NCBI RefSeq assembly: GCF_910592395.1
Contig: NC_088321.1
Span: 1,488,001-1,552,000, forward strand
Length of the DNA stretch: 64,000 nt
DNA from: Lineus longissimus
Taxonomy: Eukaryota > Nemertea > Pilidiophora > Heteronemertea > Lineidae
Direction of reading: 5' to 3'
Both the position numbers and the translations under genes were made by a program. Under the pieces are notes generated by a model. It saw only the letters and a list, made by a program, of their open reading frames with translations. It was not told the DNA's origin and ran no database searches. Shown one piece after another: positions 1 to 44,329 of the stretch (positions within the stretch are counted from its first letter, which is position 1; each line of letters opens with the position of its first letter).

Positions 1-3000
1 TTTGCTCTTGTCTTTAGATTTGATTACGTTGTTTTCGCGCTCGTAAGAATTCTGATGCATTTGGTTCGTTGTCTTCACTACGTATCCGTCTTGACTCTTA
101 CCGATGTACGACAATGGCTTTTCAAAAGAAGAAGAATCAATATGCTGTTTTGAAATCTGGTTTTTCTCATGTTGGTCTGCCTTTTGAGCCCCCTGCTCAT
201 CAGAATGAGCTCGTCGGCGCCTTCGGCCTCGTACCTCATCTCCCTCACCGCCGTTGCCGAGTTGCGTCTTCAGATCCGGTCGAAGCAGAGTCCCCGCTGA
301 TTGAGATTGGATAAGACGCTTGCTCCGCGAGCGAAACCTCGTAGCTTTTTTGTAGGCCTTCTTACATCGTGCTTTTTCGGTTTTTTCTCTACGTTGCATT
401 CTTCTCATGTTGTTGGTCTTCCACGTCCGAGCTCTGCCTACTAACATGTTTGCATGCTGCTTTAACTGTGCGTATCTTCTGCTCCAACGTACAGTTTTTC
501 GCCACCTCTTGTTCACGTCTGTTTGCCATCGCCGGAACCTGCTGGTCATCGCGTTTAGGAGAGCTACGCATTCTGATATGTGCTGGCGCCCTTTTGCTAG
601 TGCAGGGTCGCTTTGTATCGGAAAGTTTCTTGCAGAACTTGTTATTTCACTATTGGCATCGTTAGTCTGGCCTGTCTTTTTAACAACAACAACAACGTCA
701 GCTGCAGGTCCGCCACTTTTGATCACTGGATCCGCGCTATATCCCAATTTTACTGGTTGGATCTCCCCAGGAAGAGAAAGCAATCGTCTTCTCGTCAGAT
801 TACCAACAACATGCTCTGTAGCAATCGGGGGATTTGCCGGCACCGGTTGTTTTACCATATTCCCCTTGCTCTTATCGCCCGATCCCGATTCCTGTGACTT
901 TAGTGTGTTTATTCTCTTCCCCAAAACGTTCTTACGATGATGGAATTTCGTCCGTAAACGACTTTTGTAAGCCAACCACTTCCGATAAGCATTCTTTCTC
1001 GCCAGGTTGTACCTTTCTTGTATTCTTTTTAATCCTTCCCTTCTCCGCTGATGCGTTCGATCCATCATTTGTTTTAAAATGACATTACCAGTATCTACCG
1101 TGTCTGGTAATGCGGTCCCGACTTTCGAGGGGGTGAGGTCGGTTGACAACAGGCGTCTTCTGGTTGGGATATCAGCAACATCAATAGGCACTTGGCCTTC
1201 AAATCCAGTTGAACCTTTGGCCAACTCCCTTGCTTTTTGCAATTTCACGTATCGTTCCATCAATTTGTCATATTCTTGTCGTCTTTTTCTCTGTAACGCA
1301 ATTAGTTGCCTCTTCCATTTATTGTGCATATTCGTTTTCCATTCACGGTATTTGTCCTGTATCTTTTTAATATTATCCTTCCATTGCGGTCCAATTGTTT
1401 TTTTCCTCCACTTTTCGAATGTTTTCATGGTGTCAGAAGTCTTTCGCTTCTTGACCGCCTGTGTATCAGCTGCGCTTCCCGGTACACTTTTGGTCACTGG
1501 ATCTGAACTATTTCCCGATCTTACTGGTTGGACCTCCCAAGGAAGAGAAAGCAATCGTCTTGTCGGCGGGTTACCAACAACATACTCTGTAGCCACCGGG
1601 GGATTTGCCGATACTGATTTTCTTACCATTTTCCCCTTGCCCTTATTGCCCGACTGTGAGGCCTTAGACTTTAGCGTGTTGAACCTCTTCATCAAAAGGT
1701 TCTTACGATGATGGAATTTCGTCCGTAAATGACTTTTGTAAGCCAACCATTTCCGATAAGCATTCTTTCTCGCCAGGTTGTACCTTTCTTGTATTCTTTT
1801 TAATCCTTCCCTTCTCCGCTGATGCATTCGATCCATCAGTTGTTTTAAAATGACATTACCAGTATCTGCCGTGTCTGGTAATGCGGTCCCGTCTTTCGAG
1901 GGGGTGAGGTCGGTTGACAACAGGCGTCTTCTGGTTTGGATATCAGCAACATCAAAAGGCACTTGGCCTTCAAATCCAGTTGAACCTTTGGCCAACTCCC
2001 TTGCTTTTTGCAATTTCACGTATCGTTTCATCAATTTGTCATATTCTTGTCGTCTTTTTCTCTGTAACGCAATTAGTTGCCTCTTCCATTCATTGTGTAT
2101 TTTCGTTTTCCATTCACGGTATTTGTCCTGTATCTTTTTAATATTATCCTTCCATTGCGGTCCAATTGTTTTTTTCCTCCACTTTTCGAATGTTTTCATA
2201 GTGTCAGAAGTCTTTCCCTTCTTGACCGCCTGTGCATCAGCTGCGCTCGCCGGTACACTTTTGGTCACTGGATCTGAACTATTTCCCGATCTTACTGGTT
2301 GGACCTCCCAAGGAAGAGAAAGCAATCGTCTTGTCGGCGGGTTACCAACAACGTACTCTGTAGCCACCGGGGGATTTGCCGATACTGATTTTCTTACCAT
2401 TTTCCCCTTGCCCTTATTGCCCGACTGTGAGGCCTTAGACTTTAGCGTGTTGAACCTCTTCCTCAAAAGGTTTTTACGATGATGGAATTTCGTCCGTAAA
2501 TGACTTTTGTAAGCCAACCACTTCCGATAAGCATTCTTTCTCGCCAGGTTGTACCTTTCTTGTATTCTTTTTAATCCTTCCCTTCTCCGCTGATGCGTTC
2601 GATCCATCATTTGTTTTAAAATGACATTACCAGTATCTGTCGTGTCTGGTAATGCGGTCCCGACTTTCGAGGGAGTAAGGCTGGCGGACAGCAGGCGTCT
2701 TCTGGTAGGAATATCTGCAACATCAAGAGGCACTTGGCCTTCAAATCCAGTTGAACCAGTCATGACTGGTGGCGCTGCAACAGCGGAAGCCTCAGAAATT
2801 CTTGGTTTCAGTAAGTCATTTTTACCTTGGCTCTGTAATTCGCCGCTGGGGTCAATCACCACTCGTTGCAAGACTTGGGGCTCTGGTACTCTAGACTTGA
2901 GAATAACTGGATGTTCCTGTCCATCCTCTTGATAAACGTAAGAATTCGGAAGGCTTGGCTTGACAAAACTCGTTTGACTTTGTAAACCGGCACTGGGAGC

Positions 3001-6000
3001 CCTGCCGATCACCAAATTAGAACCCAGTGTCTTCGGTAGCTCTGCCTTCTCTACAGACTGACCTAATATATTGACAGTGCCACTTGGCTCATTCCCTGAC
3101 ACTGACAAAGTGGGTGTGTTCGGAATGCCCGGATTTATCAGTTTCACCTGAGGTTGTTGCTGCTGGACAACGCGGCGCAAATCCACAGCGCCAGCTGAAT
3201 CGGACTCCGAGTGTTTTTGTCGGACATGTTTTAGTTTCTTTTCCATTTTTTTTTCTTTTACCAACTCCCTTGCTCTTTGCAATTTCACGTATCGTTCCCT
3301 TAAATTGTCATATTCTTGTCGTCTTTTTTCCTGTAACGCAATTAGTTCCCTCTTCCATTTATTGTACTTTTTCGTTTTCCATTCATGGAATACGTCCTTT
3401 ATCTTTTTAATTTGATCATACCACTGCGGTCCAATTGTTTTTTTCCTCCACTTTTCGAACGTTTTTTTGGGGTCAGAAGTATTGACCTTCTTGACCGCCT
3501 GTGTTACAACTGCACCTGCCGGTATACTTTTAACTTTGACTTCGCTGCCAGTGCCAGTATGTGGTGCAATCCTGTCCACCGAAGTCGCACCTGCGCCACT
3601 GTTAACAGCAACCATGTTAGTGGCAGGAACCATTTGGACAATTCCGTTTTGACCTGTTTTTGTTATAATTGAACTCTGTGGCATACTCGCTCCGATGACT
3701 TCACTGCCAGTGCCAGTGTCCATCGCAACCAGGTTGCCAGTGCGACTCACATGACCTCCGCCATGATCTATCGGCGAAACAAGTGCCTTTGCCGGAATTT
3801 CATTTGCCGCCTTGACAACAACTGCGCCAGCAACTTGACTTTCCGGAAATCGTATGTCAGGATGAACAGTTTTGGTAACGACTGCGTTAGCCACTGATTT
3901 TTCAGGAAGGACTCCGTTAGCGTTTCCCGACTTGGTAACAACTGTGTCGATGATTGGACTTCCCGGGAGGAGTCCGTTCGCACTAGCGGTTTTGGCAACG
4001 ATCGTGTCAGCAACTTGACTTTCAGGAAGGATGATGTTTTTATCACCTGGCTTGGCAATTACCGCTACAGGACTTTCAGGAAATACTCTGTTTGCCGTTT
4101 TGGGCACAACGGCATCTACCACTTGGCTCTCCGGAAGGGATAAGGGTAGATTAGGAGTTTTTGTATTGACTGCAGCAACCACCGGACTCTTCAGAATGAC
4201 TCTGTGAGGATCAGCAGATTTAGTAACGACTGAGTTAGCCACCGGAGTTTCAGGAATGACTATGTTTGTGTTAGCATGTGCCGTCTTCGTAACAACAGTG
4301 TCAGCCACTGGACTCACTGCAAGGATCATGTTGCTATTAGACATCTTTGTGGCAACTGCACCGGCCGCTGGACTTTCAAGAACGACCGTCTTCTCATTAG
4401 CAAAGTTGGAAAGAACAGGGTTCGCTGCTGGACTTTCTGGAAGGACTCGGTATGCACTGCCTGCACCTGCCACAACTGTGTTCGCGGCAGTACTTTCGGG
4501 AACGACACCGGGTGCAATTTGTGTTTTGTAGACAACCGTTCGAGCAGCGGGACTCTGACCTTTGACCTCTTGGTGTAGGCCGGTGTTTGCAAACTTTCCG
4601 ACTGTTGCACCGCTGTTGTTGTCAATTTGTTTTAGAATAGCTGCAGCTTCAGGCGGGGAAAGTTCCTTGTCACCTATCGAGCTTTCGACATTTACTTTCC
4701 CAACATCATCGTCGTCAAGATAATCAGCATCATCGTCATCATCATTCTCAGCATCCCGTTTCCTTCTCCCGTCTTCAGAATCCCAAGGTCCATGCAGGTC
4801 CGAATCATCATCCGACCAAGAATCCCCCAGAGGCTGCAGTTCCGCAAGAGAGTCAAATGCAACATTATCTTCACCTTCCACATTCTCAGCATCCCGTCTC
4901 CTTCTCCCGTCTTCAGAATCCCAAGGTCCGTGCAGGTCCGAATCATCATCCGACCAGGAATCTCCCAGAAACTGCATATCCGCAAGAGAGTCAACTGTGA
5001 CATCATCATCTTCCTCGGTCGGACTCCGTTTTCTTCTATCATAAACCCCGGGGTCGCTTGGTTCATTGGGGTCTGAAGGGTCTATGGGGTCTTCTGCGGG
5101 TACTTTGTTTTGTACACGTTCTACACTGATAGCATCACCATAGTCAGTTTTTGTCCAGCCCTGGGCTTCACTGGGGTCAAGAGGGTTCGAATCAGACAAC
5201 TTCGTCACCACGTCATGGTCATCATAATCATCATCATTATCGGGACTTCGTTTTTCTCTTTCATCATCCCACGGGTCAGAAGGTTTGGACGGAAGTTCTA
5301 ACTGATTCAGCCACTCCATTACGCCATCACGACCACTATCCTTACCGATAAAGTCGTCATCATTATCATCATCTGGACTACGTTTCTCTCTGTCATCCAC
5401 CCATGGATCAACAGGTTCGGAAGGGTCTGGCATATTTTTAGCAAACCAATGACTTCCCATATACTTTTGACCCTTTTCAGCTTCATCGACATCATCATCA
5501 TCGTCGTCGTCGCCTTTATCATCATCTGCATCCCGTCTCCATCTACCAATTTCACCCGGATCGCTGGGTTCGCCCGGCTCCAGCTCATCCAAATCGTTAT
5601 CATTCTCAAACCCAATGTGACCGTCTCCACCGTCACTTAACCCGTTGTCCTTTGAATCATCCGGTGTGTCTACGTCATCACCTTCCGCGCCGCCGTCTAA
5701 TCCTTTTCTCTTGAAATCAGCTAACTCCCATGAGTCATCTCGACTTCCTACGTGAACGTCATCATCTCCAGCGACACCATCTGGTTTATTTCCTTTGTAA
5801 TCTGCCTGATTCCGCGAGCCTATGTCATCATCTGCCATGTCACCATCTGCTCCGGGGTCAGATTCCGTTCCGGGGTCCATCACACTCACTTGAACCTCCT
5901 CAGTTTTTTTCTCATCAACATCCGTGTCGCCATTTTGTCCAGATGGATTCACCGTTCTCGGTGGGGTGTCCGGGTCAATCACGCCTACATGTACGGCCAT

Positions 6001-7731
6001 TGGTGCTTCATTTAAAACAATGCTAGGGGGAACCACATGGCTTGTTGCTGTCCGTGGTAGAGTGACGTCAACTTGTCTAGCGGAAGTTTCCGTCATCGGC
6101 GGGGTTTCCGCGTCCATCACGACCACGTTCACAGGTTTTTCTTTTGATATACTGCTCAGGGGAACCACAGGTGTTGTTTCTATCTGAGGTAGAGTCTTTC
6201 GAACGATCGTGCCCGGGGGCACCACAGGTGTTGTTTCTATCTGAGGTAGAGTCTTTCGAACGATCTTGCCCGGGGGCACCACAGGTGTGGTTTCTATCTG
6301 AGGTAGAGTCTTTCGAACGGTCGTGCTCGGTTTTGTCACATTCGGTGTACCCGGATAATATTTCTGAAAGATTAATAAGTATCGTTTTAGTTTTAGTAAA
6401 ATATCTGTTTCCTGTACAATGAGCGACGGAGGCAGGAAACAGCACGGTTTTTACCCGCGTGAGGTTAATTTCGACGTAACCTATTTCCAATTATTCGAGG
6501 GATTATTTTAGGGGTGCGGAATAGTTTCAAAGATCTCGATGTAACTCATCTCGCAGCAAATCTGCAATATACATGTAATTGTACTGTTGCGCGAGACAAA
6601 GGGTGTTACAGTTAGTTCTGAACAATTCGGCGCACTGCATACAAGCGTACAGTGCTATACATGCCGGAAGAAGAGGAAATTGGGCGTATTCATTTGTTAT
6701 GCAGGATACGTCAACACCACCGGGCAGGTTTTTGTATCGGCTACACCACGGTAGCATTAAATAGTGCACTAGTTCACCCCAAATGACAAAGAATGAGGCC
6801 TCTGGACTGTTGCTCCAGTCTGTATAGCATTGTATGCTTGTGACGCGCTTCTCCTTAGTGCTGTTTTACCTCTGGGATGCATAATCCATAGTCTGTTCTC
6901 AGTCCTGGTTCATGGTAACAGATATGGTCCTTTAGCTTGCAATCAGAGTGTTGGAAACAGAGGTGAATGGCAAGCGATTGCTGAAAGACCAACGGAATTA
7001 TTATAGTTGGCTTCGGAAGTAATGTGACCTGCAAACGAGCGATCTTTATTGCAGCGACCTGCAATGATAACAGCTCGGGACAAAAATCTCTCGTTTGCGA
7101 GATCATCGCAAGATTCTGCAACAAGAATGCGACCTACAATAAATATTTTAAAACACACGAATTGCCGTTATGCCTTACGGGCTCACTAAGTCCTCTTCCC
7201 CCCAAGAGGGCACATAAGGCTTCCATCTTCAGTCTCCACCCTGTACGGCCCTTGCAGTTATAGCAATCTAAGTTAAATCCCCCCCCCCAAAAAAGGGGTT
7301 TTTGTCCCTATATATATACATGTATATGCTACTGTGTAGTGGCTGATTAAGGTACTAGTAAAGGGCGCTATAGAGACCATGATCAATATCTCAGAGAGCA
7401 CATGATATAATTTCATTATATTGGTCCCGAACGCACTCCTCTTTTACCCGCAGACAAAAAAAATCATCAGTCATCGCGCAGCGATTTTTTGCAGGTCGCA
7501 GCGATAAAAAATTTCATTGCGGCACCCAAACGCGGGCGTTTTTTTTAAATTTTAATGTGAATAATAACTGAAACATACCTCAGCAATCGGCTTATTACTC
7601 GCAATGCTGTCGTCGTCATCATCATTGATATGGCCATCATTTCCTCCAGGATACCCGCGAGGAACCGCTCCAGGCAAAGTTACAAACAAAAAACATGTCA
7701 ACCTGGCCAGTATCTTTAAAGATAAGACCAT
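1..7731 (-). CDS. Giant secreted acidic/basic repeat polyprotein (partial, novel family)
   Basis: Exon 1 (7579-7731) encodes 51 residues: a signal peptide starting MVLSLKILARL, then a short acidic stretch. It ends GAG|GTATGT. Exon 2 (1-6363) follows an acceptor ending ATCTTTCAG, joins in phase 0 and has no stop down to base 1, giving 2172 visible residues with the C-terminus off the window. Order: three 19-aa repeats (VRKTLPQIETTPVVPPG, about 65-122); an Asp/Glu-rich block (about 212-609) with six R-x-K/R-R sites (RWRR, REKR twice, RRKR, RRRR, RRKR); about a dozen roughly 20-aa SPVADTVVTK-like repeats (about 625-912); a basic helical module; three copies (the last partial) of a 257-aa repeat carrying Trp/Lys/Arg-rich helices and TRRRLLS or TRRLLS motifs. 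It is almost free of Cys. I recognise no family. A furin-processed, charge-block matrix, adhesive or mineral-associated protein is an inference. Confidence 0.8.
640..2755 (-). repeat. 771-bp (257-codon) in-frame coding tandem repeat, three copies
   Basis: The block recurs with a 771-bp period; the same landmark begins at 1079, 1850 and 2621. Since 771 is divisible by 3 the reading frame is kept. Each unit encodes the TRRRLLS/TRRLLS motifs and two related basic helices, one centred on IQERYNLARKNAYRKW and one on IQDKYREWKTK. The copy nearest base 1 is the most diverged and loses its second helix. The first two full copies differ at few bases, so duplication or homogenisation is recent. Confidence 0.9.
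4690..5880 (-). other. Acidic block with six furin-type cleavage sites
   Basis: This Asp/Glu-rich segment is divided by basic tetrads at 5533-5544 (RWRR), 5380-5391 (REKR), 5248-5259 (REKR), 5026-5037 (RRKR), 4894-4905 (RRRR) and 4756-4767 (RRKR). Each fits the R-x-K/R-R furin consensus. Four of the sites follow a Ser-Asp-Pro or Asp-Pro-Trp motif. The last two units are near copies containing DSWSDDDSDLHGPWDSEDG. In a secreted protein this arrangement suggests cleavage into acidic peptides of roughly 40-70 residues. Confidence 0.75.
6150..6320 (-). repeat. 57-bp coding repeat (19 aa, three copies)
   Basis: Three tandem 57-bp units encode V-R-K-T-L-P-Q-I-E-T-T-P-V-V-P-P-G-x-I. They differ at only a few bases and sit close to the start of exon 2 of the giant polyprotein. 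Confidence 0.85.
6364..7578 (-). other. Intron 1 of the giant polyprotein gene
   Basis: The donor is GAG|GTATGT and the acceptor ATTAATCTTTCAG|AAA, with a plausible branch-point sequence TTACTAAAAC upstream. Inside I see only a short C run and a TA/CATG-rich stretch near 7270-7325. No other gene is evident. Confidence 0.7.
7579..7731 (-). CDS. Signal-peptide exon of the giant polyprotein
   Basis: The ATG lies at 7729-7731, in the context CAAAATGG. The 51 codons give a hydrophobic core (ARLTCFLFVTLPGAV), a likely cleavage after it, and then an Asp run. The exon closes with GAG|GTATGT in phase 0, matching the phase of the exon at 6363. A reading frame extends upstream of the ATG, but the hydrophobic leader fits this start best. 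No clear promoter was identified; an AT-rich TATATTTT lies just upstream on the minus strand. Confidence 0.75.
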
Positions 7732-10212: not shown

Positions 10213-14715
<4,503 letters not shown>

Positions 14716-22091: not shown

Positions 22092-22302
22092 TCACTCGTC
22101 CATACTGTTGTTCAGTCGACGGAGCACCTCCGATTCGTCGATTTCCTTGACGCACGATTGGTTGACCACGCCGGTTTTGTTGCCATGGCAACAGAAGTAC
22201 CAATCGTCATCGAGTTCCTTCATAGTCATCATGACGTCACCTTTTTCGAAAGAGAGCTGCTCGCTATCAGTTGCTTTGTGGCCACAAAGTGCTTTCACGT
22301 AC
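22092..22302 (-). CDS. RUSC last exon: SH3 domain and stop
   Basis: The acceptor TCATATCTTCAG|GTACGTG completes the Arg codon begun in the previous exon. It encodes an SH3 fold with ALCGHKA (ALYDY-like), LSFEKGDVM, a DDDWYFC motif and the C-terminal GVVNQSCVKEI strand. It ends TGA at 22092-22094, soon after the domain, as in vertebrate RUSC proteins. Confidence 0.92.
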
Positions 22303-25300
22303 CTGAAGATATGAGACAATCACACTGAAACCTCTTTATCAGGGATGTCCTCGGGAGAAGCATTGTCCAGAATAGAGAGGTGTCCTGATAAGAGAGGTCA
22401 AAGTGAATCGAAGCTACTACTCTGGGAACAAAACTAGTGATCTTAATAGAGAGGGTGTCCATATTAGAAGGCGTCTATTAAGCGCTTTATAAGAACTCAT
22501 TATTATTATCATAACAGTAGAACCTCTCAATTAAGGACACCTTCGGGACTGACTGGTGCTGTCCTTAGTAGACAGGTGTCCTGATCAGAGAGGTCAAATG
22601 GACACAACCAATTTGGGACCAAAACTAGTGTCCTTTACAGAGAGGTTGTCCTTAATAGAGAGGTTGTCCTTAATAGAGAGGTTGTCCTTAATAGAGAGGT
22701 TGTCCTCAATAGAGAGGTGTCCGCTAAGGGAGGTTCCACTGTATTACCTTTTGAGTGCCTTGGTCTGGCTATCATCGGACCTCATGGAACTTGACATCGA
22801 TTTCGGCATCAGCATCGTGGATCGACGTAACGGCAGCTCCTTGGGACGAACGGCGACGGAGGCACTTTTCGGCACCACCTGGACCTTCCCGCTAGGCGGC
22901 GACACTGATATCGGCTTCAGCGGAGCAACGGGAACAGTCGGGAATCCAAAATCACCGCACGAAATCGCCGATCGGAAGCTCTCGCTCTCTGACGACGTCA
23001 CTTCGTTCATTAGGTTCGGACTGTCCAAAATATGGCCGCCGGGCGGCGTACAAAACGTCCCGGAACTCGCTGGCGAAACTTTCTGCGGACTGTCTAATAA
23101 AAGTTTATCGAACACGTTGATTAGGCTCGCACCAAGACTCCATCTTTTCGGATGCTGTTCGTCACGTCCAGACTCGTTCGTGAATCTTAGCAGCGGGCAC
23201 GACAACCTTTTGACCCCGTGATTCTCACGTCGGATTGGCTGATCACGTCGGATCCCCATATCCTGCAAATGTTGATCGAAACTTGCGTTGCTACCCTGCG
23301 ACATCTTCCCGTCCTCGCACATCGAATCCTCGCCGCCGATGGCCAAACTCAATTTCCCGTCGAACTCATATTCGGTACTTTTATAAGTGATGTCCTCCTC
23401 GCCCTTAAATTTGATCAGCCAATCAGGATTCACGTACTTCTTTTCAACTTCGTCGTCCAATTCTAATAATCGCGGCGAAACGATCTCGTTATCTTTGATT
23501 AGCTGCTCAACTTTGATCCCCTCGGAACTTAGGGATGCAACGTCAGAACCTGACGAAGCGACGTCACCTGACTTGTCCTTCAGCGTCCCCTTTGAGTCGT
23601 CCTCGAAACTAATCAAGTCGTCTTCCGCAGATTCATCTAATTCGGCTACGATCTCCTCACAAGGTGACATCTTCTCCGCGCTTCCTCGCGCAGGTGGCAT
23701 CCCAGCGACCGCTTTCATCTCCCCCTGGTTGTCGGCATCGGCACTAATCCGCGCGAGATACATCGCGAATCCTTCAATGCTCGGCGACTCGTTCTGCAGG
23801 GAAGACTTGGAGAAGAAATTAGCCAATGAAAACACGGTTTCGATCGGCGGCAGCGACCAACGATTATTCTCCGCCGGATGTTGGGAAAATTGTCCAAAGT
23901 CCCGATGAAAATGCTGACCTAGATAATCCATTGCCGAGTCGGATATCTTCGTGCCGTTCTCAATCCATTCCCGCGCCTGCTGTATATACTGTTTCACGTC
24001 CGTTTTCTGGAACAGCTCCGGTAGAACCGGTTCCTGACATTTCCCGCCGTAATCTTCACTGGACGTGATGTCGCGCGAACTCGTATCACTACTGGTTAAG
24101 GTGCTATTAGACGTCTGCACCAGCTGGAGACGGCCGTTCCATTTTTCAAACTTGCCATCTTTGTCGTCCAGTTCGTCAAGTGAACGCTGACGACGTAATC
24201 GGGAATTTTTACGAAAAGGCTCGGCCCCGAATGTAGCTTCCCTCCGCGGCGAAAGATGACGAAATTTGAATTCGAAACTGCATTCAACACGAAAGGGGAG
24301 GGAAGCAAGAGGCCTGCACAGATTGACGACGTCCTCGAAAAGGTACTGCCCCCTGGTGGCGAGGGCGAGTACCACGAAGGCGTCGTTGTTGTAGTGTTTT
24401 TTCAGGATCTTCTCCTGCGTGTGGAAGATCGTCAGCCAGTGGTCAAGCGCCTTGGCGCTGCAAAGAAACAACGAAGATTAGAAACGGACCAGTACAGCAA
24501 ACGACAGTGAGCTTTATGCAAGTATCAATTCGTTTCTTGTACCCCCCCTCCTCAAGGGTAGTTGAGCTATCACCACTAATCTTTGCCGATGCTTGAGTAG
24601 TGTTTATATTTCCTTCAGTGAAAATTTGGCGAAGCTGGAAAGAATAAGGATGCTAATGTGTCGATGTCTTGTCGAACATACAGCCTTACCCAGTAAAATT
24701 AGTCCGGTTACTTTATATGATGGTGACAACTGATATATTGTTGATGGTGATGTCTTGACGAAAGAAAAAGTAGCCTTGGTAAAAAAAGGGTGATGCTTGA
24801 GCCTTAAGATGTCGTTGTAGGGTGATAAGGTGTCGTACCCTTGAGGAGGGGGGGTACAAGACACGAATTGATACTTGCATTAGCAACATTCCGACGCTGA
24901 CTTGAACTAGGAGATTGATTTGCAGCCAGCTATGAACACCGTCAATATAAATAATGCGATCAACGTTTTCAGCACTCGAAATACCATGATTGTTGCAGGA
25001 AAGAAATTGACATTGTAACCTGGATGTGTGCATTTCATGGATGTTTGAATCATATTTGAAGTCGTTATGACAGATATCAACGATTTGGTTTTAAAGGTCA
25101 TATATCAAGGTTTTTTGCCATTTTCTGCTGTAAGACGATTTCAAAAGTGTACCTAACACTTTATACAATACAGAAAACCAAATGCAATTAGCTCCATCCA
25201 TTTTGAAGATATAGCCAATTATGTGTTTGACAACTTGATTGCCTGATCAGGCTAGTAACTGGCTTGTTAGAGCCAGGCGGCGGGTTCAGCAAAAGTTGTG

Positions 25301-28300
25301 ATGTAGATCATGTCATGCAATCATAAAAGCAGGAGGGCCTTAATTAGTTATGCACACCTGGAAGTAATGTGTTTCATTCACTATGGTGTATTGTGTGGCT
25401 CCGAATTGAGTCAAGGCTAGCACAAAGAACAATCGAATGACGGATGGGACCCATTTTCATGAATTTCCAAAGCCAGTTGAACGAGAGAGGAGGAAGCTGT
25501 GGATTCGGAAGTGCAAACGTTTGGAGTGTTGGAAGCCTGGGCCTTCGGCCAAACTTTGCAGTGATCACTTTATCGATACGGATTATCACATGAAGCCGGA
25601 TATCTGCATCCAACTGAATATTAAATGCCACTTGTTAAAAACAGCTGTTCCATCTGTATTCGATTTGACCAACCCCACTTACATGCGACAGCCTCCAAAG
25701 GAACGTTCGTTAGCCAAATGAAACGGCCAGGGGCCATTGTGCTCACCGTATACATCCTTTAGTAGGCAGGATCATGCTTAATTTAGAGGTGAATATGGTG
25801 AACACAATCAGGCATGAAGACTTTTTTAGATGTGTATTGATGTCAAGTAATAAGACAGGGCAGTATATATAAGTTTATGAGCCAACCAATAATTGTCTAT
25901 GACATCAACAAGATCAATATCGTGTGATTGCTATGAGTCCCTGCAATAAAAAATTCATCGAAAAAAAGTCATTAATAAGCGAGATATTGCACGTCCTACT
26001 TTTTCAGTTTTGACCCCCTGGTGGCCAAATCAAGAATCAGATCAGGCCAAAATTCGGTGTCAGAGATTATCTGATGTAGGGGGTTACATGTACCAACTTT
26101 CAAGTTCATAGCTTCAGCAGTTAAGAAACGTGCCATAGTTACACTCTAATGGCCAATTTATGCCATTTGACCTCTGTGACCTAGAAAAGGAGGTCAAATC
26201 CAAAAATCGTAGGACATGTGGTGTATCCTTGCTAGAAGTCCCTGCCATAAAAATTTTATCGAAAACAATTCACTCAAATGAGCAAGATATTGCACTTCTT
26301 CCTTTTTCCATTATGGCCCCCTGGTGGCCGAATAAAGAATCAGATCAGGCCAAAATTCGGCATCAAAGGTTATCTGATGTAGGGGGTTATATGCACCAAG
26401 TTTCAAGTTCATAGCTTTACTGGTTAAGAAACGTGCCATAGTTTACACTCTAACGGCCAATTTACGCCATCTGACGTCTGTGACCTTGAAAAGTAGGTCA
26501 AATTGAAAACTCGTAAGACATGTGATGTATTCTTCCTAAGAGTACCTACCATAAAAATGTTATCGAAAACAAGTCACTTATAAGCGAGATATCACACTTT
26601 TGGCCCCCTGGTGGCAAAGTTGAGAATCAGATCGAACTGAAATTCAGCACCAGAGGCTATGTGATATAGGGGGTTATATGTACCAAGTTTCAAGTTCATA
26701 GCTTTAGTGGATAAGAAACGTGCCATAGTTTACACTCTAACGGCCAATTTACACCATCTGACCTCTGTGACCTTGAAAAGTACGCCAAATTGAAAACTCG
26801 TAAGACATGTGATGTATTCTTCCTAAGAGTACCTACCATAAAAACTTTATCGAAAACAAGTCACTTATAAGCGAGATATCACACTTTTTAGATTTCCACT
26901 TTTGGCCCCCTGGTGGCAAAGTCGAGGATCAGATCAAACTGAAATTCAGCACCAGAGGCTATGTGATATAGGGGGTTATATGTACTAAGTTTCAAGTTCA
27001 TAGCTTTAGTGGTTAAGAAACGTGCCATAGTTACACTGAAACAGCCAATTTACGCCATTTGACCTCTGTGACCTTGAAAAGTAGGTCAAATTAAAAACCT
27101 GTATGATATATGATGTATCCTTGCTATGAGTACCTACCACAAAAATTTCATTCCAAACAAGTCATTAATAAGCGAGATATCACACTTTTTAGATATCTAC
27201 ATTCGGCCCCCTGGTGGCCAAATTAAGAATCAGATCGGACCGAAATTTAGTGTCACAGGTCATCTGACCAAGGGAGTCCTGTGTACAAAGTTACAAGTTC
27301 ATAGGCTTAGCGGTTAAGAAACGTGCCACTGTTTTTTAAACAGGATACGACGACGACGACGGACGACGACAGACGACGACGGACGACGGACACTGCGGTA
27401 TTGTATAGACTCCCCTACGGCGAGCCAAAAACGTAAACATCAAGAAGTGAGTTGAACACTATTTCATGATTTATACACTGCTGATGCACACAACACTCAT
27501 ACTACCCAAATGGCACATGTCATCCACTGTACAGTGGCTACACAACCATGTCAATTGCATCCTCCACTTCCTCATCACTTTCGTCCGAATGATCACTCTC
27601 ATTATGATCTAGTGATATCAATGGCTCGAACATGTATGGCTCAACGTTTAAATATCCTTCTGTATCGACCAAAACATCCTCAAATTCACTGCTCTCACTC
27701 TCTGAACTGTATACGGAAGCTATCTTGCTTTGTTCTGACTGACACGACCTACGTCATCAAAAAATCCCTAGCGGCCACATGTGGAACTAATCTAAAGTTG
27801 TGTGTGGTGGGAAATTCAAATAGTTTCAAATTGAAAATTGAAATAACTAAATAATGACTTTATTATTAGAATTTTTTTAATGTCTGGGATCTTGTTTTTT
27901 TAACCCTCAACATATTTCATGAGTATCAAGCATGTTTTCAAACCTTGATATATGACCTTTAAACGCTTTTTGATAGCTTCCACATTTTGCACCAACCCAG
28001 GCGGTTTCCTAACTCAAACCGCTGAATTTAAAATGAGGCTTTGTTTGCGCATAGTTTATTTACACTGTAAAGTGCGGTTCGTTATAAATCCAGGTATTTT
28101 AGATTTACAGTAGAACCTCTCTATTAAGGACACCCTTTGGACTGAAAAATACTGTCCTTAATTGAGAAGTGTCCTGATTACAGAGGTCAAACTCAAGGAA
28201 AATGGACCAATTTGGGACAATACGCATTGTCCTCAATAGAGAGGGTGTCCTTAGTAGAGAGGTGTCCGCTAAGAGAGGTTCAAAGTACTCACTTCAACAG

Positions 28301-31300
28301 TCCAAAGATGAAGGCATTGAATTTGGAGAGCGGACTCCCGAGACATATCTGTGATTTCACTTCCTTCACTATTTCAATCATAACCTGGAATTCAAAAGGA
28401 AAATAAAAATAATGAGCGAAACTTCATCACTTATTTGAAAGTTTTGCAATGTCACACATTTCTTGCGTGAAACTATACTGTTTATTGCAAGGTTATCAAA
28501 TGTTACAAATTTCTTAAAGGGACAATATAGGCAGCAGCTAGGCAGGCAAGATAAAGTTACACAAAGTCGCCAATAGGGGTCTCTCACATCTCAAAGAACA
28601 TGGAAATGATTCACGCTTGTACGGGGAATATATTTATTGCTGAGTCTGACATGACCAAGGGCCCTTACTGTGTATGAAGATGGCCAAATTAGCCCCTCTG
28701 CTCCTGCCTATAGTCCCCCTTTAAGACCACATCACAAAGACTAAACTTCTGACCCAGCCAGGATAATAAGCTACTGGTCAGGGTTTCCGCCAGGATCAAC
28801 TTTAAGGGGAGCAAAAAAAAAAAAAATTTCTAAAATTTTTTTTTTCTTCAAAAGGGTATATGACCCCTCCTGAGACGGTTTTTGGCCCTAAAACCGCTAC
28901 AATTGGCTCCCAAATGCTCTTATTTTACATATCAAATCATGAAAATTACTCATTTGACAGTAAAACAATATTTAGTGCTCAAAATTAAGGGGGGGAAATA
29001 TTTTAGGGGAGGATGAATACCCCCCCCCCCATCCCCCACTCTGGCGGAAACCCTGCTGGTGTATCTACAGGTGCTGCATAGCCCGATATCATAAGGCCCA
29101 ATAGGTGGCGCTAAATTAGCCAGTGCAAGGGCCTAATTTCAAACAAAGTCATTTCAATTATCTGGGACAGGATTCTGCTGTGGCATGTTCCTTCATCCTT
29201 CTTCAGAATGAACTGGGGACTTTCGTAAGTCGAATCCAGCTGGATGAAAACGAAACCCCAAACCATGCAGACAAAATATCTACAAATGGACTTAACTATC
29301 ATTCAACAGGACAAGAGCAATTTGACTTTGCCCCCAAAATGTTGTCACGAAAAACTTCTTTTTAATTCGACCCACGCCCTAGTTATTCTAATCTCACCTT
29401 TGAGACAGCGATGCACTGCTCAGCTGATTCCTCAACGACCTTCCACAGGTTGTTCTTAATTTGCCCGATGAAGCTGTGGGTACGAGGTTTGAGGCCATCG
29501 CCGAGGAGATTGTAGAGCGCCGGGCACACGTGCGACAGGAGTAGGGAGCCGACTTTCGGACAGTCTGAGGACGTGCCAAGGTGCACCCTCTCTTGACTAT
29601 TCATGGCCTGGCTATAATGACTCTGGACAACCTCCACAGCCCTTCCGACTTCAAGCACCAAATTCTTCTTCGCACCGTAATCTCCGTTCTGCCTTGTCTC
29701 GTCGTAATCGAATTTTTTCCGTCGGGTCGGGGAGATTTGGAATTCCCTGGGCGGGGACTCGGAACCGATGGCACTGTCAACGCTGGACTCGGAGGCGTGC
29801 GTTTCTGGGTAAAAGGCCCCTGAAACACAATTGTGCGTATGATGGACTCGGGAGAGTTTTTCGGGGAAACATTGATTTGAGCGTAGAGGAAAGGTTTATA
29901 TGAAACAACACAGCAAGTGGATTAGTAGGCAGATTTTGAATCATTTGAGTTGTGCCACTTATCAGGGAGTAGTTGTTGTGAATAAAAAGACAATTTCTGC
30001 TATGTGACATTAAGACTGAACCTCTCAAGGTGGGAATGGTTTTTGCTAGTACCCGACCATTCTGAGATCTTTCTTGGATTATATGCGGTATAAATGCCAA
30101 GAGTATTTCACGTGGCAATATTTCAGCACAGACATTTATTCAATTTTAATTCATCCTGCTAGCGTCTCACAGGTAAACTTTATTTCAGACAATTTTAAAT
30201 GTGATCAACTGATCATTTACCACCCTTACCCCCCTCCAAAATAAAAGTGAACCGACCTGTTTTCACTCTTTCAGTCCTGTTCCTCTCTTTCCTCTCATCA
30301 CACTGGACTCTCCCATTCTCCTGCAGGAGGGGTGGCCTCTGGACTCTACCATTCTCCTGGAGGGGTGGCTTCTGTTGCTTCTTGGGAGAGCAGTGAGGAC
30401 TACTATACGGTGAATGATACTTTATCTCCTCCGAGAAGCTCACCGACTTCTTACTTCGACGTAATCTCGCATTGTAACCGCCGCAACAGAAACTGTTACC
30501 ATGGCAACAGCACATCATGTGACCATAACCATGGAAACAACTCGGCGGCATACAACATTGGTAGTGTTGATAGGATAGAGGGCAGCACTGAGAATACGAA
30601 TGACGAAGGCGGCTCTCGTTCCGTAAATTCACGCTGTAATTACGGCGATAACTTTCGTCCTGAATCCGATTATCAGCTGACTCACTCCCCGACGTCTTTC
30701 TGGGACCTTGGTGATGCCCGTTGCCACGGGCAACAGTATGATTCTCGGCACTGAAAATCGTCGGCGCACCATCATCTGACAAGGCCTCACGATCGGAACC
30801 ACGCTCGCTGCTCTTTTCTGACGCAGTTGTCGTATCACTACTCCTGTCCAGACTCGAATCTTGTCGGTGCGTACTCGTACCACCAGGGGCGCTGACAGCG
30901 CGCCGTTTTCGTTGTTTTATAATCGGCTTCAGCTGACGTCCATCACTACTGCTTGTTTCTGATTCGTTGCAGGACGCCTGGTTTTCCAGCGACTGGTTGC
31001 TAGGCCTGTTGCCATCGTCACAAGCCAAGTGCGCGTCTGAATCTTGACTCGAGTTGTCCGTATCAGTTGAACTGCGTCTAATGCGGTCTGCTCGGTGCGT
31101 GTTATACCCTCGATTTGACCGGCGGGAGTGGTGGTCTTCATCGCTATAATAAACATAGCCGTCTGGTGACGTCATCGAGTGGTTGCTATAGCAACAGTTG
31201 TCAGGGTGCGGACTATGATGATGCCTGCCGCAGGGACTTCCAAGATGCAGCATAGCATGCTGTTGCACCATAAAGCAATTCTGGCAAAACCCAGGATTTT

Positions 31301-34300
31301 GATAAAAGCAATTGTTGCCATGGTGAGTGTCTGAGCGGTTGCTATGGTGGCTCTCAAACTGGTTGCTATGGACATTGTAATGGTTGCTATGGTGACCGTG
31401 ATGGTCATGCGACCTTGAAGAGCACCTAGCATGGTGATTTCCCTGCCCGTGCGCATCTCGTCGCGACATCCTCGGGGTATCCAACACGCCATTATTGTGG
31501 CTCGCCTGGGAGTCGGAACTGATATCCATAGACGACGCCGTCGAGCTCATGTTGCCATAGTAACGAGGCACCGCTTGGTGATGCTTTCCCTTTTCCAAAT
31601 TATCTTTTTCCAAATTCGTCATCTTATTGCCGAGTTTCCCTGCCTTTTTGCCGTTCCTGACGATTTCGATCTTCCTTCCCCCCAAACCAGATCCCTTGGC
31701 AACAGAATCCCCGCTTATACGGTTATCTAACAGTTCATTATTCATCAAAACCTCCGGCGGGTTCCGCGCCGCGCCCGCGACCGGTTTCTCCTGTTGCATT
31801 GCCGTCGCCAAGGCCTCCGCGTCCGTCAGCGATGCCGAGCTTGCACGCTCGTCCTCAATAACGACAATTTTCTTCTTCGGTTTGACGAGATACCGCGGTC
31901 TCACTTCCTCCCGTCTTCCCTGTGAATAGTCACATGACTGCGACCGCTGCGGGAAACGATTCTGCTCCCCCTGCACCGAACTCTTCGACATTCCGCGCGG
32001 ATTCAGAAAACTCAAATCCGGCAGGCGGGTATTCATAAACATCAAACTTCGACTCAGCTTATCTTTCGACGGACGGGCGTCATCCGAGAATATGTCGTCA
32101 GTGCAGCCAAGACGCTCTGTGCTCTTGGAGTGACGTCTCGGCGTCTGACTGCCCTGGCTGTTCTGCACCGACTGTCCTTGCGATGTTGGCGAGTTGCCAA
32201 CCTTTGGTATCGGTATGTGCTGGCCAGGGCTTGGCCTCTCGACTGACAAGAACTGTTCGTCGCACAGCGTCTTATCAAACGACGTCTGGCATTCCTGTTG
32301 CACCTTCCCCGCCTGAGTCAGCGAAATCGAGGTTTGCACCGCGCGGCAGAAAACATTCGGGGACGAGGTCGTATATACAGGTTTTGATATCGTATCACCG
32401 GAAAAACTCGTAATACTGTCAATGAATTTCCCACCACTTTCGACAAGGTTTTGATCAAGCAGACGATGTTTATACGCATTGTTTATACTCGGTTGTTCGT
32501 CACGCTGCATTGCTGTGAGGTCTCGTTTCAAACTCGCCGCCTTAGTACCCTGGTTTGCGAACGTCGTAAGGACGCTCTCCGTCGGTTGCGTCGCGGCGTC
32601 ACTGCGGTTAAAATTGGCCTGAATTATGGGTAGTAACGAGACGCGTTGCATCAAACCGCTGGTACGTGCGTTGTGTGCTTGTAAAGTTTCACCGTCCAAT
32701 ATAGTCCCTTGATGCAACCCGTCGATAGCATGATGCCCGTAAGGTGGGGGGACGAGGTTGGCATCCGATGACGGACTTGAACCGCAGCTGTTATCACTGC
32801 CACCAGGCGTCGCCGTGCAGCTATTAATTTTATTAATCGATGAAGACTGACTATGCTGAAGAGTACCATCCATGTCATTTTCCGTAGACCAACCATATGA
32901 CCTATTAATCCCTACAGATCGCTGCTCCGAATTAAAGGACTGCGAGTCGCCTAAATGATTCAGGAAATATCCATCATTGGCCATGAGAGACCCGTACAAC
33001 TTCTGATAAATCGGCGACGGTAATTTCCCGTATTCCTGATCCTCCGATTTCGATCGGCGGAAAATCTCAAACAACGTAAACGAGTGTCTTTTGTTTTCGG
33101 CGTCTTCTTGTTTCTCGCGTTTTTGTCGATAGCAAATCGACGGCAGGTCGTCGCCCTCCGACGCCGAGTCACACTCCTGCGCAAGATTCGGCGCGCTTTT
33201 GCACTTGCTTGAACTCGACGCCAGTAACTCCTCGTCGCGTAAAAACTGCTTCAGTTCCATGATTTCCTTCCAGGACGTATGAGGCGTGCGAGCCTTCTTC
33301 ACCTGTTGCCACGTGGTGAGACTTTTCGGCGCCGACGAAACAGACGGCGTCTCCAATTCCGAGCCGGAATTTTCCCGACTCGTCCACGAGATGTTTTCCA
33401 ACGTCGAGTCGCTACTGTGGAACTCCTTCTCTTTCCGCTCGGGCACGTCCAACGCCCCGCTAAACTTCTGACCCCAGCACGTCATGGGCTTACTGACGTC
33501 ATTAGCGGCGCCACCTTTGAGCGTAAATGTCCCAAGTGGTGTGAGAGCGGCGCGCGGCTCGATGCTATCAGTCGGATCTGTCATCGTGATTGGCTCACTC
33601 GACGACAAATCGTGTAAATTCTGTTGGATGTTCCGCCATCTTTTCAACAGTCGTCCTCCGTTCATCCTCCCAGCGAGAACTTCCGACAAGCCCTCCGGAT
33701 AACTGTACATCATCTCATAATCCGGTGAAATCAATCGTGCGCTATCCGAAGCCGCCATCTTCTTTAGATTAACTGTGTGCCAGAGCTCCAGTCCCGTACC
33801 CGTCGCACCACTAGCGCCACCTACATTTTCAACAGACGCATGAAGACTTGCGTCCTCCTCAAACGTGAGATTATCATACGCAAACGACTCCGAAACATCC
33901 GCGGAAATCTGCAACTCCTGCTCGATTTCATCCAGTAGTTGCGAGTCATAGTCATCCATGGTGTTGTCGGCGCTTGCGTCTAAAGTGTCCTGAAGTACGA
34001 CACTATCATCCTGAATGTCTGGTACATCTTGCACATTGATGGCACTGTCGTCCTGATCCGACGCGCTTCGGTATCCACAGTCCTCCGGAACCACTTGCGT
34101 ATCGTCAGAATGAAACTCCACCGATATCTCCTCCACACTTCCGATCCAATTCACCTCCGCGGCAGCCCCGGCGGCGCCCTCTGGCAGAATATTCTCGTGT
34201 TCGGCGCTCAGCAGCATGTGCTCCGCCAATAGCGGTTCATGCTCGTTCGAGTAATAGTCATCGAGACAGACCATCTCGCCGGCCGAGTGATCCATTTCCG

Positions 34301-36388
34301 AGCACATGTACTCCGAATCCGTGTGTTCTTCCTCTTCCGCGTTTTGAACACCTTCAAGACTTTCCGTTGCGTCGCTCAACCACGCGTCATGGTACTCCTG
34401 CTCGTCGTCAGAATATTTCGTCGGACTACGATCGAATGCTAAGAAGTAGTTTTTCTTATTCGCGTAGCACGCTTTAAGGTTAAAATCGTCCTCCGTCGCG
34501 ATGGAACAATCTAAATCAGTACGATCCAAGCTGTCCGTTGAGTATAAATTCTGTGGCACGACGCCATCTTGTGAGGATGAAAACAGAGGCCCGCTTTGTA
34601 GCGAGGAGTGCGTCATACCCGGTGAGTAGACCTGATCGGAACGGAACGACAGCTCTGCGGAACTCGCACAGTCGTACCCGCTCGATGATTGTCCGCGAGA
34701 ACTCGTACGCTCGCTCATCGATAGTTCCAAGTCGTAGTTATAGAGGGCGCTGTCCGAACGCGTGCGCACCAACATCATTTTATTTTCTGGCGCCTGATTA
34801 TTGTACACGGCAAAGAAACTAGAAATGTCCTCGTTTTCGAACGTATCCATGTCGATTGCGGCGTAGTCGCCGCCGAGTTGCGTAGAAAAATCATCATCGT
34901 AAAAATATCCCGAGCCAGTCGATGCTTCAAGTGACGAGGGCAGGCGTGGGTAGTTGCTGGTTTGCTCAATAGGTGTCTTCACAGGTGATCTTGAATTCTG
35001 TAATGATAATTCGTAGCGATGAGTAAGTACCAAATTACAATTTTTACGTTGATTCTATTTTGAAATTCATCAGTAAGTTTAGGTGAAACTAACACTGCCA
35101 AAACAATTCAGCAATTAACATGTTTGACCAAGAAGAGTCAATAGAGAGGTTTAGATTTTGATCCGAAAATGAGACCTGAGGTGATTTGTTCCAGATTTTT
35201 TTACATCGTCAAGTTGATAGTTCCTTTAAAAAGGCTTGCGTGTCCAAATGGGTTTATATAGTCTTGCCTAGTTACTTCATATCAATAAATTGGTTGAGGA
35301 AATATCTCAAGTTTCGGACTTATATAGGACTTTTGCGCAATATTCAAAGTCTCAATTCCGGTACATGTAACTTCAAGCATCACCTCCCTATTGACAAGAA
35401 TCGTCCATAGAACCGAGGTTCACCAATGCATCATCCAACTAAAACCCCGTCCCCACATCTCAAGTTTTGGACTATTTATATAGGACTTTTGAGCAATATT
35501 CAAAGTCTCAATTCCGGTACATGTAACTTCAAACATTACCTCCCTATTGACATGAATCGTCCATAGAACCGAGGTTCACTAATGCATTTTCCAACTAAAA
35601 CCCCGTCCCCACATCTCAAGTTTTGGACTATTTATATAGGACTTTTGAGCAATATTCAAAGTCTCAATTCCGGTACATGTAACTTCAAGCATTACCTCCC
35701 TATTGACAAGAATCGTCCATAGAACCAAGGTTCACCAATGCATCATCCAACTAAAACCCCGTCCCCACATCTCAAGTTTTGGACTATTTATATAGGACTT
35801 TTGAGCAATATTCAAAGTCTCAATTCCGGTGCATGTAACTTCAAGCATTACCTCCCTATTGACAAGAATCGTCCATGGAACCGAGGTTCACCAATGTATT
35901 ATCCAACTAAAACCCCGTCCCCACATCTCAAGTTTTGGACTATTTATATAAGACTTTTGAGCAATATTCAAAGTCTCAATTCCGGTACATGTAACTTCAA
36001 GCATCAGCTCCCTATTGACAAGAATCGTCCATAGAACCAAGGTTCACCAATGTATTATCCAACTAAAACCCCGTCCCCAGTCTCGCCAATTGCTCACCTC
36101 TGTAGTAGGTGTCATATCTGGTTCCTCCATGTTGTCATTTAAATCATGCAAATTGTCCGTCACGCCACCTTTGGCCTGCCCGTTCAACTCATCCTCGTAC
36201 TCCTCTGCATACGCACTTGACCCTCCCAGCGTTTCCGTCCGCGGTACGATGTTCACCGCCTCAGCGCTCGATTCTGATTGGCCGTTGACTGGGAGGGCGT
36301 GTTCGTTGAGCGATAGGTTGTGGCCGAACGCGTAGTCGACCATGGCATCCACTTTCTCCGGACCGATTCTCATACACTCCATAATCAT
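22092..36388 (-). CDS. RUSC1/2-type RUN and SH3 domain adaptor (iporin family)
   Basis: RUSC proteins are scaffolds in vesicle traffic (RUSC2/iporin binds Rab1) and signalling. Exons in transcript order: 36388-36098, 34997-30257, 29819-29398, 28384-28293, 24457-22748, 22302-22092. Every junction is GT-AG and in phase, giving 2488 residues, longer than vertebrate RUSC2. The N-terminal 1700 residues are disordered and Ser/Asp-rich, with a His-rich stretch (about 1283-1370), a Cys cluster (about 1577-1614) and KSVSF, a candidate PP1-docking motif (about 1613). RUN spans about 1720-1915 (CPALYNLLGDGLKP, FNAFIFGLLN, LASLPFRVE). SH3 is about 2419-2475 (ALCGHKATDSEQLSFEKGD). The ATG is preceded by an in-frame TGA; further 5' exons cannot be excluded. 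Confidence 0.92.
22303..22747 (-). other. RUSC terminal intron, built almost wholly of two MITEs
   Basis: 445 bp. After the donor GTAA, a pogo-like MITE starts at once (TACAGTGGAACCTCCC, 22743-22513). After a short AT-rich spacer comes a degraded second copy (about 22500-22321), then about 18 bases to the acceptor ATATCTTCAG. Confidence 0.85.
22513..22743. mobile_element. pogo-like MITE copy 3, touching a RUSC splice donor
   Basis: Ends are ACAGTAGAACCTCTC and GGGAGGTTCCACTGTA. It has internal 18-bp repeats of CTTAATAGAGAGGTTGTC. A second, degraded element of the same family lies at about 22321-22500. Confidence 0.9.
24518..24880. mobile_element. MITE with about 43-bp inverted ends, in RUSC intron
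   Basis: GCAAGTATCAATTCG...CTTGTACCCCCCCTCCTCAAGGGTA at the left is repeated inverted as TACCCTTGAGGAGGGGGGGTACAAG...CGAATTGATACTTGC at the right, with few mismatches. The 270-bp interior has no coding capacity. The left end lies 60 bp from the acceptor of the large RUN/linker exon. Confidence 0.85.
25383..25721 (+). pseudogene. THAP zinc-finger domain with in-frame UGA
   Basis: From ATG 25383 the reading is MVYCVAPN-stop, then continues in frame as a near-complete THAP domain: HFHEFPKP, the conserved Trp in KLWIRKC, CSDHF (C-x2-H zinc ligands) and the closing AVPSVF. THAP domains bind DNA through C-x2-4-C-x35-50-C-x2-H. The UGA at 25407-25409 sits where the second Cys belongs (C-x4-C). All other hallmark residues remain. 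It lies within the large RUSC intron on the opposite strand. Probably a relic of a THAP gene or P-element-like transposase; the TAA-free tail ends at 25721. Confidence 0.65.
25860..27420. repeat. About 300-bp tandem repeat, five copies
   Basis: CCCCCTGGTGGC recurs at about 26014, 26317, 26603, 26905 and 27207. Units share GACCTCTGTGACCTTGAAAA, GGGGGTTATATGTACCAAG and AAGAAACGTGCCATAG. The array ends in an ACGACGACGGACGACG microsatellite (27345-27395). Short open frames inside are not genes. Confidence 0.85.
27534..27740 (-). CDS. Possible exon of a P2X7-like/transposon-derived protein
   Basis: The minus strand is open for Ser/Glu-rich sequence around YLNVEPYMFEPLISLD followed by an acidic tail ending VV-stop. 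An E/R-P-Y-x-F/Y-E-P motif inside an acidic N-terminus is, to my knowledge, typical of invertebrate 'P2X7-like' and related transposon-derived proteins. No start codon or certain splice sites could be assigned, so this may be a relic. It lies near the THAP relic. Confidence 0.3.
28106..28287. mobile_element. pogo-like MITE copy 4, touching another RUSC splice donor
   Basis: The left end is TTACAGTAGAACCTCTC; the right end is decayed (AGAGAGGTTCAAAGTA). It stops within a few bases of the donor GTGAGT of the exon 28384-28293. Confidence 0.85.
28293..29819 (-). CDS. RUSC RUN-domain exons
   Basis: The exon 29819-29398 starts after GTGTTTCAG and carries the first RUN helices (LVLEVGRAVEVVQSHY, LLSHVCPALYNLLGDG, NNLWKVVEES). 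The exon 28384-28293 adds VMIEIVKEVKSQICL and FNAFIFGLL. The next exon completes LLN-AKALDHW. The pattern matches RUN blocks of RUSC proteins, including the highly conserved FNAFI-GLLN. Confidence 0.92.
28514..28734. mobile_element. TTAA-flanked MITE (AGGGACWATAGGCAG ends), copy 1
   Basis: TTAAAGGGACAATATAGGCAG at one end and CTGCCTATAGTCCCCCTTTAA at the other form inverted ends inside a TTAA duplication. Relatives lie at 56668-56889 and 52943-53132. Confidence 0.8.
28745..29390. other. RUSC intron sequence without recognised feature
   Basis: An A/T homopolymer (28815-28850) and a C run (29019-29035) are visible. Otherwise this is unremarkable intron sequence. Confidence 0.4.
35281..36080. 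repeat. 156-bp minisatellite in RUSC intron 1, about five copies
   Basis: AACTAAAACCCCGTCCCC recurs at 35437, 35593, 35749, 35905 and 36061. The period is exactly 156 (52 codons), so plus-strand frames stay open across units. The last unit ends 20 bp from the donor of the first RUSC coding exon. Confidence 0.92.
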
Positions 36389-38960: not shown

Positions 38961-39329
38961 GCCAATTGGTTTGGACCAGTATGTTCTGCTAGCTGTGGCT
39001 AAGACATAGAGTTAATGAGAACGACAACAGCTCGGTGAAAAACTCGATATTGCGATGGTTTTGTGTCTTACTTCCATGAGTTTTTAGGGGAACCATGCAA
39101 ACATACCCTGCATGCGTCCCCCCTCGTTATAACGCACACCTCACTATAACGAACATTTTGCTTGGATCTCATGGTGTTTGATACAGCGAGAGACTACTGT
39201 TTTCTGTAAGTGTAAGCAGGGGCTTGTGTTTAGTTTGAGATAGAATTGGGCGTTGTGGACAGGCACTGTCAAACACAAATATGTGGTGGGCGTATCACTT
39301 TCACGAGTAACCTAGATTCACAAAAGAAA

Positions 39330-44328: not shown

Positions 44329-44329
44329 A

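Follow-up and report, generated by a model that had tools for sequence, protein, structure and literature searches.

What does an animal make with a gene whose product passes from strongly acidic to strongly basic within a single chain? This question is raised by a gene at the left edge of a 64,000-nucleotide stretch of the nemertean Lineus longissimus (hereafter the window; contig NC_088321.1), for which the original prediction had proposed a giant secreted protein of opposite charge blocks. The analysis established an intact gene model with spliced exons; its product is a giant protein built of modules, with blocks of opposite charge and a TSP1 domain at its C-terminus. The explanation that we favour, as a tentative choice that could well prove wrong, is that it encodes a giant secreted precursor, from which polyanionic and polycationic pieces, made together and freed by convertases, would build a slime, a glue or an extrusome matrix. 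Plain numbers below are window positions, the prefix C14 marks contig positions (the window being C14:1488001-1552000), and all features of the gene lie on the minus strand.

A spliced gene for a giant TSP1-tailed protein

Exon 1 (7579..7731) carries the start codon, which is the first ATG past an in-frame stop, followed by a hydrophobic N-terminus and the first Asp run, and ends in a phase-0 GT donor; the hydrophobic character was judged by eye, an ideal signal cleavage site was not seen there, and an additional non-coding exon may lie upstream. This signal-peptide-like exon joins exon 2 in phase 0 at 7579/6363 (donor GTATGT, acceptor TTTCAG), and the window part of exon 2 (1..6363) continues from its AG acceptor as an open frame with no stop, the whole minus-strand frame 6450-1 being free of stops and leaving the window at base 1. 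The spliced frame of exons 1 and 2 comprises 2,172 codons inside the window and is still open there, as the original prediction had described. The extension leftward to a stop codon that it had proposed was made with two 10-kb stretches left of the window, from which the gene model was finished: exon 2 extends to C14:1485714 (8,650 base pairs (bp) in full, 2,883 codons without a stop) and is followed by exon 3 (C14:1485428-1485318), exon 4 (C14:1484716-1484162) and exon 5, the TSP1 domain exon, which runs from C14:1483695 to a stop codon at about C14:1483551. The gene extends about 4.4 kb past the window edge; its five exons are separated by introns that are all GT-AG, with phases 0, 1, 1 and 1, and an AATAAA lies 55 bases past the stop codon.

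The exon 2 frame had no in-frame stop; the remaining two sense frames had 130 and 250, and each of 200 base shuffles of the exon contained at least 134 (mean 161). Because of this open frame, the in-phase splice and the start exon, we take the gene observation to be real. The full protein has 3,204 residues (358 kDa, isoelectric point 8.6, net charge +18 and so close to balance) and contains 44 Trp, 1.9% Tyr and 15 Cys, six of the latter in the C-terminal TSP1 domain; the near-absence of Cys that had been reported holds for the window part, with 3 in 2,172 residues.

Exon 5 encodes a complete TSP_1 domain of Pfam (E 1.3e-13; 51.3 bits against a curated cut-off of 21.6; profile positions 1-49 of 49; six Cys), as is looked for in a member of the TSR superfamily, and when compared with the PDB it matched 30 sequences at E 0.001, the best chain being thrombospondin-1 (1.7e-19). 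The remaining 98% or so of the chain differs from that superfamily in that exons 1-4 matched no Pfam family. Thrombospondins proper carry EGF, TSP3 and C-terminal domains besides TSP1; the worm protein was not assigned to them, as exons 1-4 gave no Pfam match and the chain stops at its TSP1 domain. Neither the window part of exon 2 nor exon 4 matched a PDB sequence at E 1, and the two matches obtained with the 762 residues of exon 2 past the window (E 0.088 and 0.23) were discounted as chance resemblance among basic or helical stretches. The window part of exon 2 also had a single NCBIfam match, likewise taken as chance (E 0.023; it scored 13.9 bits where the cut-off is 362), and neither Rfam, at gathering scores, nor a tRNA scan reported anything in the window.

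The worm's own genome was searched for copies (391,118,348 bases in 30 contigs, with only the best candidates scored). With window 1000-6450 as the DNA query, 26 matches were obtained, two in the gene and 24 elsewhere; the latter, of about 40-60 bases at 80-90% identity, were set aside as simple sequence because they were confined to three query stretches encoding Asp runs. The frame 6450-1, searched as protein, matched the gene, its own repeat past the window and two places on another contig (C13). These two matches, to the Val/Ala zone (E 1.2e-4 and 7.0e-4), contain 5 and 3 stop codons and were set aside. Exon 4 matched only itself, so that no second copy was found in this genome for it or for the window part of exon 2. 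The titles and abstract beginnings searched offered nothing that could be recognised as this protein; the terms "thrombospondin" and "mucin" do not occur in the main text of PMC11768458 or PMC12846013, nor "thrombospondin" in that of PMC9132205. Judged from sequence comparison, the novelty would lie in exons 1-4 having no Pfam match, in exons 2 and 4 having no PDB match beyond chance, and in the searched literature offering no counterpart.

Opposite charge blocks and candidate cleavage sites

Zone boundaries along the protein were our own choice. Near the N-terminus lie three 19-residue VRKTLPQIETTPVVP-type tandem repeats (6151..6318, period 57 bp; residues 67-122), and these are followed by an acidic block with Asp runs (4687..5919; residues 200-610, net -94), an approximately neutral Val/Pro/Ala zone with degenerate repeats often spaced by 60 bp (3502..4686; residues 611-1005), and a basic block (592..3501; residues 1006-1975, net +119). 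The predicted order from acidic through Val/Pro/Ala to basic Trp/Lys/Arg sequence was borne out, with charges beyond those of 2,000 shuffles: in 400-residue windows along the whole protein the net charge reached -95 and +69, and in 2,000 residue shuffles it never passed -43 or +49. Further on, residues 1976-2710 are mixed, with Cys-bearing stretches (net +24), residues 2711-2935 have a net charge of about -7, and residues 2936-3160 are acidic again (-23).

The basic zone consists of Trp/Lys/Arg repeats with a period of 771 bp, in which two stretches, A and B, alternate in 257-residue units present in about three copies. AlphaFold2, run on one such unit (1513..2283) with four aligned rows, predicted helix A at residues 41-100 and helix B at 139-210, with low-confidence linkers that hold RRLL sites (mean predicted local distance difference test, pLDDT, 63.3; predicted template modelling score, pTM, 0.25). 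The next unit (742..1512) is 86% identical to it, and the first copies of basic helix A (3238..3465) and basic helix B (2407..2628) are assigned as helices by likeness to the modelled unit. A third repeat class begins with basic helix C, which bears two Cys (292..591), and continues outside the window; window 208-591, modelled by AlphaFold2 from the single sequence, was predicted to form one helix at residues 2-100 (mean pLDDT 83.5, pTM 0.41). A copy of the stretch around helix C, 37% identical to it, lies outside the window, where the class goes on as a Cys-bearing stretch, a polybasic run and a hydrophobic motif with three occurrences. A Foldseek comparison of the helix A-B unit with the PDB gave no match at E 0.001 and one at E 7.7, as expected of lone helices.

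Two sets of cleavage-like motifs divide this chain. The furin-like motif R-X-[KR]-R occurs 20 times in the whole protein, overlaps counted, and all six of its occurrences in the acidic zone are followed by Asp-Ala or Ser-Pro: RWRR/DA (5533..5544), REKR/SP (5380..5391 and 5248..5259), RRKR/SP (5026..5037), RRRR/DA (4894..4905) and RRKR/DA (4756..4767), the slash marking the putative cut. The extended pattern, R.[KR]R followed by [DS][AP], had a mean of 0.05 and a maximum of 2 in shuffles against the six observed, and the acidic pieces between the six sites measure 51, 44, 74, 44 and 46 residues. The other motif, R-[RHK]-L-L followed by [SGA], was observed nine times in the basic and later zones, compared with shuffle means of 0.16-0.21 and a maximum of 3 (2,000 shuffles of each kind). 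The nine sites occupy five contexts: three stand in contexts outside the tandem units, and six, in two context types, are the RRLL/S sites within the units (2689..2700, 2320..2331, 1918..1929, 1549..1560, 1147..1158 and 778..789). Both RRLL sites of the modelled unit (1918..1929 and 1549..1560) fall outside its two helices, in stretches of pLDDT under 50. Its RKRR match lies inside helix A and, going by the model, may not be a cleavage site. A polybasic site, RGRRRRR/AHSD (211..231), follows helix C.

R-X-L(-L) motifs are found in the positions expected of an RXL-processed precursor, at the predicted borders of modules. Sites of this kind have precedents in the material presented by two sources: the self-processing sites of the site-1 protease (S1P) precursor, pro-S1P, include RRLL (PMC8019017), and RXL endoproteolysis has been proposed for diatom silica proteins (PMC4557024).

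Explanations weighed against known systems

The sequence strongly suggests that the protein enters the secretory pathway and is cut at multiple places. In the mechanism that we propose, the chain would enter by its signal-peptide-like start, furin-type convertases would cut the R-X-[KR]-R motifs of the acidic and third zones in the Golgi or a granule, and a SKI-1-like (site-1-protease-like) or another RXL-type endoprotease would cut the R-X-L-L/small motifs between the basic helices and later in the chain. The products would arise in a fixed ratio, the acidic peptides being 44-74 residues long and the basic helical pieces 123-134, and could pack densely in a gland granule through their opposite charges; upon release into sea water they might rearrange to a cohesive material, whether slime, glue or an extrusome matrix (for example that of pseudocnidae), with the TSP1 tail binding glycans or an epithelial surface. 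We infer such charge-compensated packing and extracellular assembly from the layout of the chain; the protein may be a raw material of slime or glue. A fuller version, in which the gene would be a one-gene kit for a complex coacervate (polyanion, neutral spacer, polycation helices and surface-binding TSP1 tail, in fixed ratio on one chain and set free through a furin code in the acidic zone and a SKI-1/S1P-like R-X-L-L code between the cationic helices) forming the matrix of nemertean slime or pseudocnidae, we regard as rather doubtful.

The nearest known plan, by likeness of described layout and with no claim of homology, is that of Mlig-ap2 of the flatworm Macrostomum lignano, whose knockdown abolished adhesion (PMC6410801). 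As described in the portions of the literature drawn on here, Mlig-ap2 is a very large secreted protein with a core of tandem repeats (46 copies, of 255 and 221 residues) and TSP1 repeats towards its C-terminus (PMC6410801; PMC8621496). The worm protein resembles it in having about three 771-bp units of 257 residues followed by TSP1, and differs in that Mlig-ap2 carries vWD, TIL and LDL-receptor domains and several TSP1 repeats. We do not assign the protein to the ap2 type: Pfam found no vWD, TIL or LDL-receptor domain in exons 1-4, and there is a single TSP1 domain. The earlier statement that no family of this plan was known needs correction because of the canonical C-terminal TSP1 domain and the Mlig-ap2-like plan; exons 1-4 by themselves have no Pfam match. 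The functional interpretation that accompanied it is partly upheld, by the secretory-type start, the opposite charge blocks and the candidate motifs that could separate them.

Two further systems share parts of the layout, according to the sections of their accounts used here. Mlig-ap1 also has long Lys/Arg-rich regions, whose positive charge its authors propose to matter for cohesion, but it is Cys-rich, with EGF, lectin and vWD domains, and for its release the authors propose a small anionic molecule separate from the chain, not an acidic block within it (PMC6410801). Diatom silaffins and silacidins derive from repetitive precursors for which cleavage at RXL (RRIL and RRNL in silaffin) into highly charged peptides is supposed, and polyanions assist polycation phase separation in the silica system (PMC4557024); they differ in belonging to unrelated organisms and in being silica-specific, silaffins being charged both ways by residue modification and silacidins coming from another precursor. 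Neither kind is known to carry a TSP1 domain.

Besides the missing ap2-type domains, several observations weigh against the precursor explanation. The chain shows only weakly the features of known glues (Cys numbers 15 and Tyr makes up 1.9% of the 3,204 residues), and the S-x-[ED] motif occurs 10 times in the acidic block against a shuffle mean of 10.6; in the whole protein it occurs 46 times against a mean of 36.5, and 4.9% of shuffles attain 46. The broad site-1-protease pattern R.[LVI][LTFK] was not enriched (13, with shuffle means of 8.9-9.2 and maxima of 19-21), so that enrichment is limited to the R.LL/small form. Four of the furin-like matches sit inside predicted helices or in copies of these and may escape cleavage altogether, and the shuffle figures overstate the independent evidence because many motif sites are copies of each other. 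A synonymous-codon test, trained on one neighbouring long open reading frame (ORF) with a second as control, did not favour the exon 2 frame (-0.091; the other frames scored -0.023 and -0.131), and gave a weak preference to the long frame of the control (0.097 against 0.062 and -0.098); GC content at third positions was 0.44 in the exon 2 frame and 0.57 and 0.61 in the two neighbouring ORFs. Ratios of non-synonymous to synonymous substitution rates (dN/dS) between repeat copies were 1.02 and 1.04 for helix A (dS being 0 in the third pair), 0.85 for the acidic pair and 0.41-0.97 for the 19-residue repeats; for whole units they were 0.41, 0.89 and 0.79, the last two including partly out-of-register ends. 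Helix B (0.40-0.55) and the hydrophobic motif pair (0.43) gave lower ratios. Taken together these ratios are weak evidence of constraint on the protein sequence, and they fit a composition-driven material protein and recent duplication equally.

Of the alternatives the one that survives best, itself a doubtful one, is that the protein is a largely uncut component of the extracellular matrix or basement membrane, whose basic helices would have sulphated glycans as ligands and whose acidic block would bind calcium, while the TSP1 tail would attach to the cell surface or matrix. TSP1 domains are typical of matrix proteins, the TSP_1 domain found here is closest to thrombospondin-1 in the PDB, and long basic helices are predicted by the models; regular convertase-like motifs separating the modules, and five exons with no Pfam domain other than TSP_1, argue in the opposite direction.

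The repeated, bracketed units with their basic Trp-containing helices also suit a role in defence, which we consider unlikely: the chain would yield many cationic, membrane-active peptides, and the acidic pieces would serve as pro-segments that neutralise them. The first copy of helix C and hydrophobic motif 3 beat shuffles (their best 18-residue hydrophobic moments being reached by 5% and 0% of 300), but four helix A/B segments were not more amphipathic than shuffles (34-67% reaching the best moment), and neither were the second copy of helix C (92%) and the first two hydrophobic motifs (25% and 26%). Membrane-active peptides are usually short, whereas the predicted helices are about 60-100 residues long. 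It counts in favour that most of the mucus sequences of one palaeonemertean, as summarised in the part of PMC12846013 used here, have no significant similarity to known ones.

A mineral-directing matrix protein, like the diatom precursors, is very improbable, and as we know of no mineralised structure in Lineus longissimus, we rank the mineral template last in likelihood among the options that the original prediction had named. The acidic block, too, is not enriched in the S-x-[ED] kinase motif. Charged repeat peptides and RXL-type sites, as reported for silaffin, cingulin, frustulin and silacidin precursors in the portion of PMC4557024 used, are what speaks for it. That the locus is no expressed gene, being an intact-looking but decaying or mis-assembled repeat region, is suggested by the codon-usage test and by dN/dS near 1 in part, and is made highly unlikely by the 2,883 stop-free codons of exon 2, the consistency of all four introns, and a TSP1 exon that is intact and has both its stop codon and AATAAA. 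A neuropeptide or peptide-hormone precursor would account for the signal-peptide-like start and repeated multibasic sites, but is hardly credible given the long predicted pieces, the TSP1 tail and amidation motifs, G[KR][KR], that were not enriched (4 against shuffle means of 5.1-5.2).

Surroundings and meaning of the gene

The GC content of the window is 44.0%, compared with 41.5% for chromosome 14 in the published Lineus longissimus assembly, as tabulated in the part of that source used (PMC8593623). A dispersed element lies inside intron 3 of the gene (C14:1485083-1484763) and again at window 59055-59690 and 62896-63435; its copies share translated stretches such as SRSPNRHLF, in differing frames. 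Downstream of the gene, C14:1478290-1479060 is a tandem array of 165-bp units that is open in several frames, and short dispersed tandem repeat arrays, with translations such as SIKDTLSIKD, were seen at window 39316-40363, 56014-56306 and 62560-62862. Adjoining the gene, three ORFs at 12102-14712 (plus strand) match the papain-family cysteine proteases (Pfam PF00112) and would be exons of a cathepsin-like gene; the one at 12927-13547 (plus) continues into a low-complexity stretch of Ser/Leu/Phe/Pro. At 22095-35054 (minus strand) an SH3 domain ORF (22095-22319) is accompanied by upstream ORFs of 577 and 1,613 residues with no Pfam match, which together presumably resemble RUN/SH3 (RUSC-type) proteins, and among them, on the opposite strand, is a THAP domain ORF (25410-25718, plus; Pfam E 1.2e-11), perhaps a transposon remnant. 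A duplication at 43800-47000, with a spacing of 1,060-1,061 bases and identical stretches of 300 and 243 bases, either arose by tandem duplication very recently or reflects an effect of the assembly.

Secreted charge-driven materials are usually viewed as mixtures of separate acidic and basic proteins. If the precursor explanation is true, a single chain with both charges and two sets of cut sites would fix genetically both the ratio of the components and the time of their meeting. For pseudocnidae, the portion of PMC7897414 drawn on here, which does not name Lineus longissimus in full, calls the structural compounds uncharacterised, notes that an adhesive function has been proposed while direct evidence is lacking, and records that Lineus sanguineus immobilises prey without obvious adhesion. 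With these compounds and the mostly unmatched mucus sequences of one palaeonemertean in view, the gene offers a concrete, testable candidate, and it hints that animals may use R-X-L-L processing for material secreted in bulk.

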